Shown here one piece after another: positions 11,475 through 28,893 of a stretch of DNA of 33,289 bases. The notes beneath the pieces were generated by a model, which was not told the DNA's origin, did not search any database, and saw only the letters and a list, made by a program, of their open reading frames with translations. The DNA is taken from positions 1 to 33,289 of the IMG/VR virus record IMGVR_UViG_3300031997_000038; one strand, given 5' to 3'. The translations under genes and the position numbers were made by a program. This DNA comes from a virus. How positions within the stretch are numbered: the first letter of the stretch is position 1; each line of letters starts with the position of its first letter.

Positions 11475-11548
11475 AGCCCATGGGGGGATTTGAACCCCCG
11501 ACTTTTTGCTTACCAAGCAAACACGCTACCGGTCTGCGTTACATGGGC
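11475..11548 (-). tRNA. tRNA-Thr (anticodon GGT)
   Basis: On the minus strand from 11548 to 11475 all arms fold. The acceptor is GCCCATG/CATGGGC (7 bp) and the D stem is ACGC/GCGT with a loop carrying GG. The anticodon stem TTTGC/GCAAA holds the loop TTGGTAA, giving anticodon GGT (Thr, codon ACC). The T stem is GGGGG/CCCCC with the loop TTCAAAT. The discriminator is T, as in archaeal tRNA-Thr, and no CCA is encoded. The 5' end is only six bases after the stop of the leftward regulator gene, so the two may be co-transcribed and separated by RNase P. Confidence 0.93.
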
Positions 11549-17631: not shown

Positions 17632-17843
17632 GCAGCCTCAGATCTCACCCGCTGCGGGAGAAGAAGGTTGTTGCATGGATTGACGCCCTCCCGGACGGCA
17701 AAGAGTTCCACGCCCGGGAAATCGCCAAGGCGCTGAATCTTATGGGAGTAGAAGTGGGAAATATCCTTAAATCCCAGACGAACGTGATCAAGAGCCGGAA
17801 AGAGTTCTTATCCGGTCAGATATGGCAGAAGGTGCCGGCATGA
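17628..17843 (+). CDS. Small winged-helix-like protein
   Basis: The 71-residue protein is coupled to the preceding gene. It has a helix-turn-helix-like pattern, KKVVAWIDALPDG followed by FHAREIAKALNLMGVEVGNI and ending [18 protein letters not shown]. The order helix, F-H-A-R-E-I-A-K-A, helix, and a closing wing strand is that of small winged helices. The wing residues (SGQIWQK) are polar. It probably contacts DNA, perhaps with the neighbouring ribbon-helix-helix-like protein. No family name is claimed. Confidence 0.55.
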   Translation: MSSLRSHPLREKKVVAWIDALPDGKEFHAREIAKALNLMGVEVGNILKSQTNVIKSRKEFLSGQIWQKVPA

Positions 17844-18034
17844 ACCACCGTACCTCATCCAAGAGCAGTAATTGTCAGAAACGACCGACCCGGGTATTCC
17901 TGAACTGTATAATCTGCGGCAAACGGTTCTCAGTGAATGCATCTGAGTACCGGTATAAGTTGAAGCAAGGAACGCAACCGAAGAATTGTTCTCAGAAGTG
18001 TGGGGCACAGGCCCGCCGGGGAGTGAAGGCATGA
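17840..18034 (+). CDS. Small zinc-finger protein
   Basis: From ATG 17840 (overlapping the preceding TGA) the 64-residue product has one clear zinc site: C-x-x-C in [13 protein letters not shown] and C-x-x-x-C in [14 protein letters not shown], 28 residues apart. This is the layout of short zinc ribbons or treble-clef knuckles that commonly accompany phage nucleases and methyltransferases. Its last bases overlap the start of the methyltransferase locus (18031). Probably binds DNA or RNA; the exact family is not recognised. Confidence 0.6.
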
Positions 18035-18195
18035 CGGATTTAACGCACCTCTCCCTGTTCAGCGGTATCGGAGGCATAGACTTGGCTGCGGAATGGGCAG
18101 GGTTCAGGACCATTGGGCAGGTGGAACTCGCAGACTATCCCTTTCGCAGTCCTCCAGAAACATTGGCCCGATGTGCCAAAGTGGAGGGATATTAG
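18031..18195 (+). CDS. C5-cytosine methyltransferase N-terminal fragment
   Basis: This 54-residue frame starts at ATG 18031, overlapping the previous stop. It contains motif I of C5-cytosine methyltransferases ([17 protein letters not shown]), the S-adenosylmethionine binding loop, plus the following VELADYPF. It then leaves the family sequence at 18138-18142 and ends at TAG 18193. Reading one base further on restores the family sequence ([12 protein letters not shown]), so the break is a one-base gain in the CCC run or a +1 shift site. Two bases after its stop, an ATG (18198) opens the other long frame. See the two overlapping entries. Confidence 0.7.
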
Positions 18196-19228
18196 GGATG
18201 TCACAAGTGGATCTTACAGGGAACGCTGTGGAGAATCTCCCCTCACAATATTGTCCGGTGGATTCCCCTGCCAGCCGTTCAGTTGTGCCGGGAAGCGACA
18301 AGGCGAGAAAGATGACCGTTTCCTCTGGCCTGAAATGCTCCGCGTTATTACGGAGCTCAAACCATCTTGGATTATTGGAGAAAACGTGCCTGGGATCATC
18401 ACAATGGCACTCGACAATTGTCTTACTGGCATGGAAAATATCGGCTACTCCTGCAGGGCGTTCAATATTCCAGCTTGTTCCGTCGGTGCCGTTCATAGAA
18501 GAGCAAGAATCTTCATTGTTGCCCACAGTAACAACGCAGGAAGTGGAACCCCCGGAGATGGAATTATCGGAAAATGGAAGACGCCTGACAAAGAACAACC
18601 AGAACTCCCATTCCATAAACCTGGCAGATCGGTTGCTAATGACTCCATCAGCGACCAACATAGAGGGCGGGTCCGATCGGACCGAGAAGAGAACGAAGTA
18701 TCGGGAATCAATCGGAAGGCATTACGTTCCCGGAGGTTTGGCAGAACAGATCAAGATGTTACCACCCCTCAGGGCAAACGACAACGATCAAGGAAACCAC
18801 GAAGCAATTCTGAAAGCGGGATCGTCGTGGAAAGGGCAGAAACGGGGAAGTACGGTAGCAACAGCAATAGCAATGCTCCCGACCTGCACAGCCAGGGATT
18901 ACAAGGATACAGGACAGAATACAAACTATCGCAAACTATCCGAGAAGTGCATACTATCCGGAAGGATTGCAATGCTTCCGACAGTCACGACCCCACGACC
19001 CCACGACTCGGAGAAAACGGCAGGGGAATATATCCCAAGTCAGAACCAGGTGGATCTGACTGTAATCCTTGGAAAGAACAATGGCTTGAAGTTGCAACCC
19101 GCCTTTGCCGAGTGGATGATGGGTTTCCCAGAAGGGTGGACCGCCTTAAATGCCTCGGAAATGCCGTTGTCCCGCAGCAAGTCTATCCGATCCTCAAAGC
19201 GATTGCAGACATTGAAAGGGGGTGCTGA
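18031..19228 (+). CDS. DNA C5-cytosine methyltransferase, interrupted by a +1 frame break
   Basis: After the break near 18140 the frame running to TGA 19226-19228 carries the other conserved motifs. Motif IV is GGFPCQPFS, with the catalytic Cys codon at 18269-18271. Motif VI is ENVPG (18380-18394), motif VIII is HRRARIFIV, and motif X is GNAVVP (19157-19174) with RLKCLGN before it. The stretch between motifs VIII and X (about 170 residues, Ser/Arg/Asn rich) would hold the target recognition region. This frame has no good start of its own, so an intact enzyme needs a frameshift or a sequencing correction. Viral enzymes of this kind protect DNA from restriction. The same bases also encode another long frame (18198-19235). 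Confidence 0.75.
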
Positions 19229-19235
19229 AGTATGA
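18198..19235 (+). CDS. Overlapping 345-residue frame with methyltransferase-associated motifs
   Basis: This frame is open for 345 codons over the same bases as the methyltransferase, shifted one base. Its ATG lies two bases after the TAG of the 54-residue fragment and nine bases after GGAGGG (18183-18188). Its stop overlaps the next start (ATGA at 19232), as for most genes here. It carries five LPT-x-T/TPSAT-like blocks at 18519, 18639, 18756, 18873 and 18972 ([46 protein letters not shown]). It then has [15 protein letters not shown] (from 19107). From memory, similar sequences occur in many phage and viral-metagenome proteins labelled methyltransferase or hypothetical; I cannot verify this here. 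Confidence 0.55.
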   Translation: MSQVDLTGNAVENLPSQYCPVDSPASRSVVPGSDKARKMTVSSGLKCSALLRSSNHLGLLEKTCLGSSQWHSTIVLLAWKISATPAGRSIFQLVPSVPFIEEQESSLLPTVTTQEVEPPEMELSENGRRLTKNNQNSHSINLADRLLMTPSATNIEGGSDRTEKRTKYRESIGRHYVPGGLAEQIKMLPPLRANDNDQGNHEAILKAGSSWKGQKRGSTVATAIAMLPTCTARDYKDTGQNTNYRKLSEKCILSGRIAMLPTVTTPRPHDSEKTAGEYIPSQNQVDLTVILGKNNGLKLQPAFAEWMMGFPEGWTALNASEMPLSRSKSIRSSKRLQTLKGGAEV

Positions 19236-19513
19236 CCCAACCCATCCCCCGGGACTGGACGAAATGCCAGAAAGAGATTGACAGCTTACTCCGGTTCTAT
19301 GATCCGGAGTATGAGAGCCGGACGTATCTCAAATCGGGGTTTTATATCCATGATATTGCAGATCACCCGGAGAAGTATCCTTTATTAGCGGCATTATCAC
19401 CACAGCTCCGGAAACGGCATATCAGTATCTACTTGAAACAACAGGGCCGGATACCAAGGACTCATACGATTGGTGTTGAGATCGTGTGGATGCTGCCCGG
19501 GGTGCTGGCATGA
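19232..19513 (+). CDS. Hypothetical protein downstream of methyltransferase
   Basis: The 93-residue protein starts at an ATGA overlap with the 18198 frame. It is mixed helix and strand, with the pattern YLKSGFYIHDIADHPEKYPL and LRKRHISIYLKQQGRIPR, where a basic helix might contact DNA. The end (VEIVWMLPGVLA) overlaps the HNH gene start. No domain is recognised. It may act with the methyltransferase or HNH gene, judged only from neighbourhood. Confidence 0.5.
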   Translation: MTQPIPRDWTKCQKEIDSLLRFYDPEYESRTYLKSGFYIHDIADHPEKYPLLAALSPQLRKRHISIYLKQQGRIPRTHTIGVEIVWMLPGVLA

Positions 19514-27285: not shown

Positions 27286-27413
27286 AGTGTACCGATTGCC
27301 GGAACTGGAGTAAGTGTACAGAGTTGGACCGGCAGAAACACGATGCCTCCGGTACCTGTGATACGTTCCTGAAGATCGACTGGTCGGTACTCGGGGAAAG
27401 GCACTGGACATGA
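27282..27413 (+). CDS. Small Cys-rich protein before ParB-like gene
   Basis: The 43-residue frame begins at GTG 27282 (GTGA overlap) and ends overlapping ATG 27410. Its start KCTDCRNWSKCTELDRQKHD and DASGTCDTF give a C-x-x-C-x(5)-C...C pattern, likely one zinc ion. Such DCRNW-type micro-proteins are common in phages as accessory genes. Coupling on both sides supports translation. Confidence 0.55.
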   Translation: MKCTDCRNWSKCTELDRQKHDASGTCDTFLKIDWSVLGERHWT

Positions 27414-27904
27414 ACTTCAAAAAAGTATTCATCAGCGAACTATCGCCAGCGAAATACAATCCCCGGAAAGACCTGCAACCGAACGACCCGGAATATCAAG
27501 CGATAAAGCGGTCGATTGAAGAGTTCGGATATGTTGACCCGGTTATTGTAAACAGCGATTATACGGTGATCGGAGGACACCAAAGATTAAAGGTGCTGAA
27601 AGAACTGGGACACGCACAGATTGACGTTGTAGTTGTGGATATCCCGAAGATCAAAGAGAAGGCGCTGAACATCGCTCTGAACAAGATCACGGGCGAATGG
27701 GACACGCAACGATTAACCGACCTGCTCGGGGAACTGAAAGCAGAGGGAATGGATATCAGCATCACCGGGTTTGATGATGCTGAATTTGACCGAATAATTC
27801 GGGATATGAACATACCGGAAACCGAAAAAGAATATGATGAATCCGTCGCCGATGATGTGGAAATGATAACGTGCCCCCATTGTGGAAAGGAGTTTCCTCA
27901 ATGA
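27410..27904 (+). CDS. ParB/Srx-fold nuclease-domain protein with zinc knuckle
   Basis: The 164-residue protein opens with a ParB-like domain (about 5-95): FISELSPAKYNPRKDL, IKRSIEEFGYVDPVIVN, the signature TVIGGHQRLKVLKELGH, and IPKIKEKALNIALNK. The G-G-H-Q-R box is the nucleotide-binding motif of the family. The C-terminal part carries C-P-H-C-G-K (one half zinc knuckle). Viral ParB-like proteins next to methyltransferases and terminase are frequent and often regulate packaging or modification; they are seldom real partition proteins. Its stop overlaps the methyltransferase start. Confidence 0.85.
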   Translation: MNFKKVFISELSPAKYNPRKDLQPNDPEYQAIKRSIEEFGYVDPVIVNSDYTVIGGHQRLKVLKELGHAQIDVVVVDIPKIKEKALNIALNKITGEWDTQRLTDLLGELKAEGMDISITGFDDAEFDRIIRDMNIPETEKEYDESVADDVEMITCPHCGKEFPQ

Positions 27905-28893
27905 GTTTTAAGGTTGTATCTCTCTTTGCAGGGTGTGGGGGTTCATCTACTGGTTACGTCATGGCGGGGGGGAAAGTCCTCCTTGCAGTAGAATGGGATG
28001 ATAATGCGGTTGCCACATACAAAGCGAATTATCCAGATACCCCCGTTTATCATGGAGATATTGGGAAATTATCAATAGAGGAGATCCTAAAAACAACAGG
28101 ACTTAAACCCGGCGAACTGGATATTTTAGACGGTTCACCCCCATGTCAGGGATTCAGCACGGCGGGAAAACGGGATTTTTGCGATACGAGAAACCAACTC
28201 TTTAAAGAATATGTCCGGATCCTTCAGGGACTCCACCCAAAAGTATTTGTGATGGAAAATGTTTCCGGAATGGTAAAAGGCAAAATGAAATTAATATTTG
28301 CCGAAATCCTCCGGGAACTCAAAGGATCAGGGTATCAGGTAAAAGCCCGGTTAATGAATGCAATGTATTATGGCGTTCCCCAATCCCGGCAGAGGATGAT
28401 CTTTGTTGGGGTACGGAACGATTTAGGGATTGAACCGAGCCATCCGAATCCACAGACAAGACCTATACCAGTAAAAGAGGCATGGAAAAATATAAAGAAC
28501 GAAAATTATGCCCGACCGTTGGCAACTGTGGCAACAAACGTATGGAACGCTATAAAACCCGGACAGAATGGTTCTGCATATAGACCGGGATATTATTTTG
28601 GATCTCCTAAACTCGATCCCAATAAACCATCACCAACAATGAATAAATCCCTACCCGGGATTGGGGGATTATTACACCCCATTGAAAAGAGGACCATTAC
28701 AATAGAAGAAGCAAAGCGCATTCACTCATATCCAGATTCATATATTTTCCTCGGTTCTTTTACCGATAGATATGCAAGAATCGGCAATTCCGTTCCCCCA
28801 TTACTCACCAAAGCAGTAGCAGAGCATATAGACAAAAACATCCTCCAGCGGTATAGGGACACGTTCAAGAAAGAGCCGGTGCTGATGAAATGA
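27901..28893 (+). CDS. DNA C5-cytosine methyltransferase (intact)
   Basis: ATG 27901 overlaps the preceding stop, so the upstream in-frame start at 27871 is not used. The 330-residue enzyme contains all main motifs: I FAGCGG (9-14), IV SPPCQGFS with catalytic Cys82, VI ENVSG (119-123), VIII QSRQR (161-165), and the motif IX-X region with PDSYIF and GNSVPP (about 302-307). It transfers a methyl group from S-adenosylmethionine to carbon 5 of cytosine. The target recognition region is short (about 180-250). No restriction enzyme is adjacent, so it is probably a solitary viral enzyme. The gene is more A/T-rich than its neighbours, suggesting separate acquisition. Confidence 0.95.
   Translation: MSFKVVSLFAGCGGSSTGYVMAGGKVLLAVEWDDNAVATYKANYPDTPVYHGDIGKLSIEEILKTTGLKPGELDILDGSPPCQGFSTAGKRDFCDTRNQLFKEYVRILQGLHPKVFVMENVSGMVKGKMKLIFAEILRELKGSGYQVKARLMNAMYYGVPQSRQRMIFVGVRNDLGIEPSHPNPQTRPIPVKEAWKNIKNENYARPLATVATNVWNAIKPGQNGSAYRPGYYFGSPKLDPNKPSPTMNKSLPGIGGLLHPIEKRTITIEEAKRIHSYPDSYIFLGSFTDRYARIGNSVPPLLTKAVAEHIDKNILQRYRDTFKKEPVLMK

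Follow-up and report, generated by a model that had tools for sequence, protein, structure and literature searches.

Layout of the methyltransferase locus

A C5-cytosine DNA methyltransferase (MTase) locus with two long overlapping frames is found in the virus record IMGVR_UViG_3300031997_000038, whose whole stretch of 33,289 bases was analysed and is called the window here. The frame-broken MTase is referred to as alpha and the gene nested in it as beta. The features of the locus are as follows.

17822 to 18034, + strand: preceding small gene, overlapping the alpha start as ATGA
18031 to 18144, + strand: N-terminal part of alpha in frame 0, with motif I SLFSGIGG; PF00145 positions 2-31, phrog_363 at E 2.1e-11
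18139 to 18147, + strand: putative +1 shift site CCC_TTT_CGC, within GCAGACTATCCCTTTCGC, combining CCC_U and UUU_CGN
18143 to 19228, + strand: alpha motifs IV-VIII and X in the +1 frame; PF00145 at E 2.5e-27, phrog_363 at E 1.4e-57
18145 to 18195, + strand: unshifted tail of the motif-I frame, with its stop TAG at 18193-18195; unconserved against the related contig L018
18183 to 18188, + strand: Shine-Dalgarno sequence GGAGGG of the nested gene, built by the alpha codons TGG AGG GAT (W-R-D)
18198 to 19235, + strand: nested beta-like gene of 345 aa, +1 relative to the main alpha part; phrog_1008 at E 2.4e-35
19110 to 19142, + strand: motif IX-like stretch in the nested frame, aligned by hhalign to motif IX of in-frame MTases
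19157 to 19174, + strand: motif X GNAVVP in the alpha frame, from the DNA sequence and the shift-read protein
19232 to 19513, + strand: next gene, its ATG at 19232 overlapping the nested stop TGA 19233-19235 as ATGA; family searches gave no family

A sequence-only reading of this DNA had already placed ATG 18031, the CCC TTT at 18139-18144, the TAG closing the unshifted frame, the GGAGGG nine bases upstream of ATG 18198 and the ATGA overlap at the end of the second frame, and all of these positions were confirmed. Its claim that the MTase needs a +1 shift was likewise borne out. PF00145 is matched at positions 2-31 in frame 0 and at positions 40-321 in the +1 frame, so a single C5-cytosine MTase is split over two frames; the continuous reading frame that PF00145 MTases have is absent, and the +1 break follows motif I. 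While motif I lies in frame 0, the +1 frame contains PCQ, ENV, RRARIF and GNAVVP, which we take to be motifs IV, VI, VIII and X. Whether the shift occurs at CCC-T or at TTT-C, the product is identical.

With regard to the virus itself, the named phages nearest to its terminase are the methanogen phages psiM2 and psiM100 (48-49% identity), nearly equalled by Gordonia phages, and the phage-collection matches of its major capsid protein are haloarchaeal tailed viruses only (7 records). From these two proteins, the virus would be a tailed virus of an archaeal host, probably a methanogen. A virus-encoded suppressor tRNA was sought in the window and none was found, the sole tRNA there being a tRNA-Thr with anticodon GGT (11475-11548, minus strand), a possible attachment site or virus tRNA. 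The window also carries a second C5 MTase, unbroken and of ordinary design, at 27871-28893, with 27410-27904 upstream and a ParB-like gene adjoining.

The frame break is carried by two viruses

Comparison with relatives, which the sequence-only reading had named as a check, covered 370 loci. Among the 283 distinct relatives that could be resolved, 282 read through the junction in one frame and L018 alone is broken; 5 loci were unresolved, and the remainder were duplicates or lacked the gene. L018 is a 42-kb virus contig (L096 and L293 are the same contig fetched again), and its break is identical to that of the window, GAC_TAT_CCC_TTT_CGC. L018 was again the only contig returned when viral contigs were scanned by pattern and by N-terminus for further break-bearing relatives, and when they were searched for the +1 spacing while the flanking codons were kept constant. 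The MTase of L018 (2916-3657) is a mosaic, whose 5' part is 82% identical to the window and whose 3' end is more so, while its middle has been replaced by that of another MTase type, in which the frame is open (PF00145 E 1.3e-25).

Over the first 160 bases, the window and L018 share 82% identity, and the 18-base block GCAGACTATCCCTTTCGC around the putative shift site is unchanged between them. Before the break, 12 of the 13 changed codons are synonymous in frame 0 and 1 is non-synonymous (binomial P 4e-7). After the break, the +1 frame shows 6 synonymous changes and 1 non-synonymous change (P 4e-4), in a comparison of 14 codons that all lie upstream of the nested start; in the unshifted frame, the changes are 1 synonymous and 8 non-synonymous. 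Three codons at the beginning of the compared stretch and three alpha codons at its end, all of them non-synonymous, are omitted from these counts.

A sequencing or assembly error at the CCC/TTT run was one of three options that had been offered for the break. Because a diverged virus has the same break, with changes that respect the shift, such an error is effectively excluded, and we rejected it as nearly refuted. Judged by the comparison of the two viruses, the break is real and common to both viruses, with coding selection on both of its sides. Most economically, the break arose once, in an ancestor, and both parts stayed under selection afterwards; this requires either translation that joins the two frames or a joint function of the two pieces. 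Of the three options, the programmed +1 shift has the strongest support, since the sequence on each side of the break evolves under coding constraint, with the downstream frame displaced by +1; a disabled enzyme remains its rival.

Two pieces working together need not be joined by the ribosome. A 54-aa motif-I peptide and a separately started polypeptide of the +1 frame might assemble in trans without any frameshift, the second chain beginning at TTG 18113 or similar (GTG in L018), and C5 MTases are described as tolerant of splitting, with fragments of several able to complement (PMC3404938). However, the +1 frame has no opening ATG there, the tail of the motif-I peptide is unconserved against L018 (the 1 synonymous and 8 non-synonymous changes given above), and the best complementation, as described in PMC3404938, came from cuts far downstream, near the recognition domain. 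We consider such a split enzyme improbable.

A conserved gene is nested inside the MTase

The second long frame, in contrast to a mere shadow of a conserved MTase, carries its own signs of selection. In relatives, stops in the +1 frame between motifs IV and X were counted at the 95 loci, among 258 with an alpha ORF, whose motifs I, IV and X all fall within a single complete frame; 169 were observed against 520.1 expected from shuffling synonymous codons. In the same 95 relatives the +2 frame held 1183 stops against 1195.1 expected, and 85 other genes of the same loci, used as a control, held 1231 +1-frame stops against 1294.0. The +1 translation was also closer to the nested protein of the window than all 20 synonymous shuffles in 130 of 140 relatives, these being what remained of 158 loci with nested-frame data after 18 with an open stretch of more than 30 bases past the alpha stop were dropped.

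The nested start falls at one of two places in most relatives, and each is preceded by a Shine-Dalgarno-like site made from MTase codons. The arginine of W-R-D is encoded by AGG, which gives GGAGGG, in 13 of the 15 relatives that share the nested start of the window, and by AGG in just 3 of the 72 whose nested gene starts further on (101 distinct loci, 14 of them without a nested start at either place). By the synonymous-codon shuffles, the frame controls and the control genes, the possibility of a shadow was rejected. The nested frame is a real, conserved +1-frame gene inside the MTase family.

All 55 nested proteins that were scanned match phrog_1008. In Paenibacillus phage Bloom, the nested gene carries the annotation 'DNA cytosine methyltransferase', as does the gene that encloses it, and its product BLOOM_57 matches phrog_1008 at E 6e-72. 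The label of phrog_1008, 'DNA methyltransferase', is probably inherited, because the nested proteins gave no MTase match in Pfam and are encoded in the frame +1 to that of a genuine MTase. A homing HNH insertion, of the kind found in phage ShiLan, was rejected because the nested protein has no HNH match in Pfam or PHROGs. A PDB sequence search with the nested protein and a PADLOC search returned no match. SHOCT-like domains are matched by some nested proteins (SHOCT in 8 and SHOCT_2 in 3 of 55, best E 3.2e-5). AlphaFold2 predicted the nested protein with a mean pLDDT of 51.7, ordered just at about residues 50-97 and 300-310; for alpha, modelled as one chain across the shift, the mean pLDDT was 38.7.

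Motif IX in the nested frame points to a probable two-subunit MTase

The C-terminus of the nested proteins has the consensus LNPxWVEWLMGFPxGWT, which can be aligned to the motif IX of those MTases whose motifs IX and X share a frame. When the nested profile was compared with motif IX by hhalign, the probability was 92.5 (E 4.7e-7 for a single comparison), while 20 column-shuffled controls reached at most 18.1 and the reversed profile gave 0.09. In single proteins the signal is weak: a motif IX HMM found 8 of 132 nested proteins at E <0.01, against 0 of 132 reversed sequences and 0 of 97 alpha proteins (best alpha match, E 0.28), and it gave the window's own nested protein just E 0.22. The nested frame of the window holds the motif IX-like string MMGFP, and no such string occurs in any of the 97 alpha frames that have motif X. 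The motif IX glycine and motif X are about 12 codons apart in the window, compared with 20-26 in in-frame enzymes.

Since the conserved nested gene carries motif IX, its product probably serves the MTase as a partner subunit and is unlikely to be an unrelated protein. A two-chain enzyme with such an arrangement is M.EcoHK31I, in which the small-chain gene is nested in the large-chain gene, in another frame. The likeness to the window is one of motif distribution, with the same split of motifs over two chains. As described for M.EcoHK31I, the larger chain has motifs I-VIII and X together with the recognition domain, and the smaller chain has motif IX (PMC3404938). Because the split is equal, we may conclude that the pair probably represents alpha (motifs I-VIII and X, frame-broken) and beta (nested, with motif IX) of a two-subunit MTase, thus a variant of a known two-subunit design and not a new kind of system. 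We infer from the motif split that the two chains would form one enzyme. Unlike the alpha of the window, the large chain of M.EcoHK31I is presented without a +1 break in the description drawn on here (PMC3404938).

The motifs could also be brought together in cis, if further shifts made one monomeric MTase whose recognition domain and motif IX come from the nested frame. Between motifs VIII and X, alpha looks to be of low complexity, and the nested frame has repeated LLPTxTAxD units. Against this, the nested gene has its own ribosome site and start, conserved in many relatives, and it overlaps motif X instead of abutting it, and we hold a monomer to be very improbable.

Frame damage within the family

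The rival that deserves the most weight is that an inherited frameshift killed alpha and the nested gene was kept for another role. Frame damage does occur in the MTase family, because the end of the gene, with motif IX in the nested frame and motif X in the MTase frame, is out of register with the front in 14 of the 111 loci (among 150) in which both motifs were recognised, and these frame breaks lie elsewhere in the gene. In the 14 loci (L206, L216, L178, L210, L136, L225, L222 and L215; also L116, L212, L226, L221, L197 and L247), the IX/X end has moved by one base as a unit, and the MTase front enters the nested C-terminus or the third frame. This displacement could be decay or more frameshifting. 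At L091 2985-3000, and also in L207, a further MTase from the family changes frame at a six-G run just before motif IV, a homopolymer that suggests sequencing error or phase variation.

Further points in favour of a disabled enzyme come from L018 and from the distribution of the gene. The motif X of L018 alpha reads RNAVVP, with loss of the glycine, while GN is found in all 118 family members scored there, so that this alpha is possibly decaying. The break is carried by two viruses only, which counts against a programmed shift, and the MTase locus gene was present in 1 of 16 related virus records searched, that of L018 (several of the records being short fragments), so it may be dispensable. 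On the other side stand the 6 synonymous changes against 1 non-synonymous in the alpha frame after the break, within the 14 codons before the nested start, and the openness of alpha, which continues for 371 codons in the window and through the swapped-in middle in L018. Taken together, a dead alpha seems unlikely to us, and the programmed +1 shift remains the reading that we prefer.

The putative shift site and the proposed translation path

A known shift-prone sequence, CCC_UUU_CGC, is present at the break. Listeria phage PSA shifts +1 at CCC_U, which forms its first part, and influenza PA-X does so at UUU_CGN, with related sites in plant and insect viruses; for UUU_CGN, the favoured explanation in these sources is that tRNA-Phe re-pairs from UUU to UUC (PMC5009743, PMC3498833). 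In-frame TTT_CGN occurs 0 times in 34 genes of the window (107 TTT codons), compared with about 3.9 expected from the product of codon counts. Cruder gene calls give 2 occurrences in the window where 5.4 are expected, and 17 where 28.1 are expected across four viruses, which indicates that any avoidance is mild. Neither CCC nor CGC is a rare codon in the window.

In the window, the first base of the unshifted stop lies 5 bases ahead of the nested ATG, and in L018 it lies 7 bases past that ATG, so unshifted ribosomes would be well placed to restart on beta. However, 2 of 15 unbroken relatives likewise have a stop in the corresponding frame no more than 7 bases from where the nested gene starts, and the adjacency alone thus lends weak support. 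Predicted RNA structure was not significant against shuffles (z -1.43 and -1.06; -1.43 and -0.58 for a hairpin enclosing GGAGGG). The predicted hairpin at 18145-18200, which is no better than shuffles, pairs CCTCCA with TGGAGG, and it would mask the nested ribosome site until a ribosome arrives at the TAG.

According to the proposed path, translation would begin at ATG 18031, and the ribosomes that slip +1 at CCC_UUU_CGC would make alpha, the slip being most simply a re-pairing of tRNA-Phe from UUU to UUC, or else of tRNA-Pro on CCC_U. Ribosomes that do not slip would terminate at TAG 18193 and, with GGAGGG as an aid, reinitiate at ATG 18198 and produce beta, after which they would continue via the ATGA overlap into the next gene. 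The coupled path from the motif-I fragment through the second frame to the next gene had been proposed before and is consistent with the sequence; what goes beyond that proposal is the recognition of a conserved nested gene (phrog_1008) with motif IX in the second frame. In this way, a single start site would set the ratio of alpha to beta. We infer the ribosome shift, the slip codon and the restart on beta from the DNA, and we lean, with some reserve, towards a programmed +1 shift that makes alpha while unshifted ribosomes restart on beta. The fuller proposal, that in an archaeal tailed virus the +1 shift at CCC_UUU_CGC acts as a switch between two subunits, with its efficiency setting their stoichiometry, is more tentative, and we give it rather less than an even chance.

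Relation to known recoding and overlapping genes

The contexts of Listeria phage PSA on the one hand and of influenza PA-X with the plant and insect viruses on the other are both held in CCC_UUU_CGC; the shifts of those systems, as covered in the two sources, make capsid, tail or host-shutoff proteins, whereas the shift here would restore an enzyme (PMC5009743, PMC3498833). Programmed frameshifting in archaea is exemplified by fucA1 (-1) and by the virus HSTV-2 (+1, predicted), and according to the same review, +1 shifting in archaea is so far predicted only (PMC8211752). These cases resemble the present one as recoding in archaea and tailed viruses, but the genes and sites differ (PMC8211752).

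Phage ShiLan offers a likeness of another sort, with an out-of-frame HNH endonuclease in a phage methylase, that is, a second protein hidden in another frame (PMC11855218). While the ShiLan gene is described as a mobile HNH insertion (PMC11855218), the nested gene of the present locus lacks an HNH match and belongs to the MTase throughout the family. In the literature on overlaps inside phage cytosine MTases, subscription papers being outside its scope, our search found no description of the nested family.

Significance

If the preferred reading is true, the locus would offer a directly testable +1 frameshift in an archaeal virus, in which recoding and overprinting jointly set the composition of a two-subunit enzyme. 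The nested motif IX gene is the larger finding of the two. Independent of the frameshift, it is widespread in phage and prophage C5 MTases, and databases give it as a second 'DNA methyltransferase' or omit it, so that such MTases, when annotated by the alpha frame alone, would miss a part.
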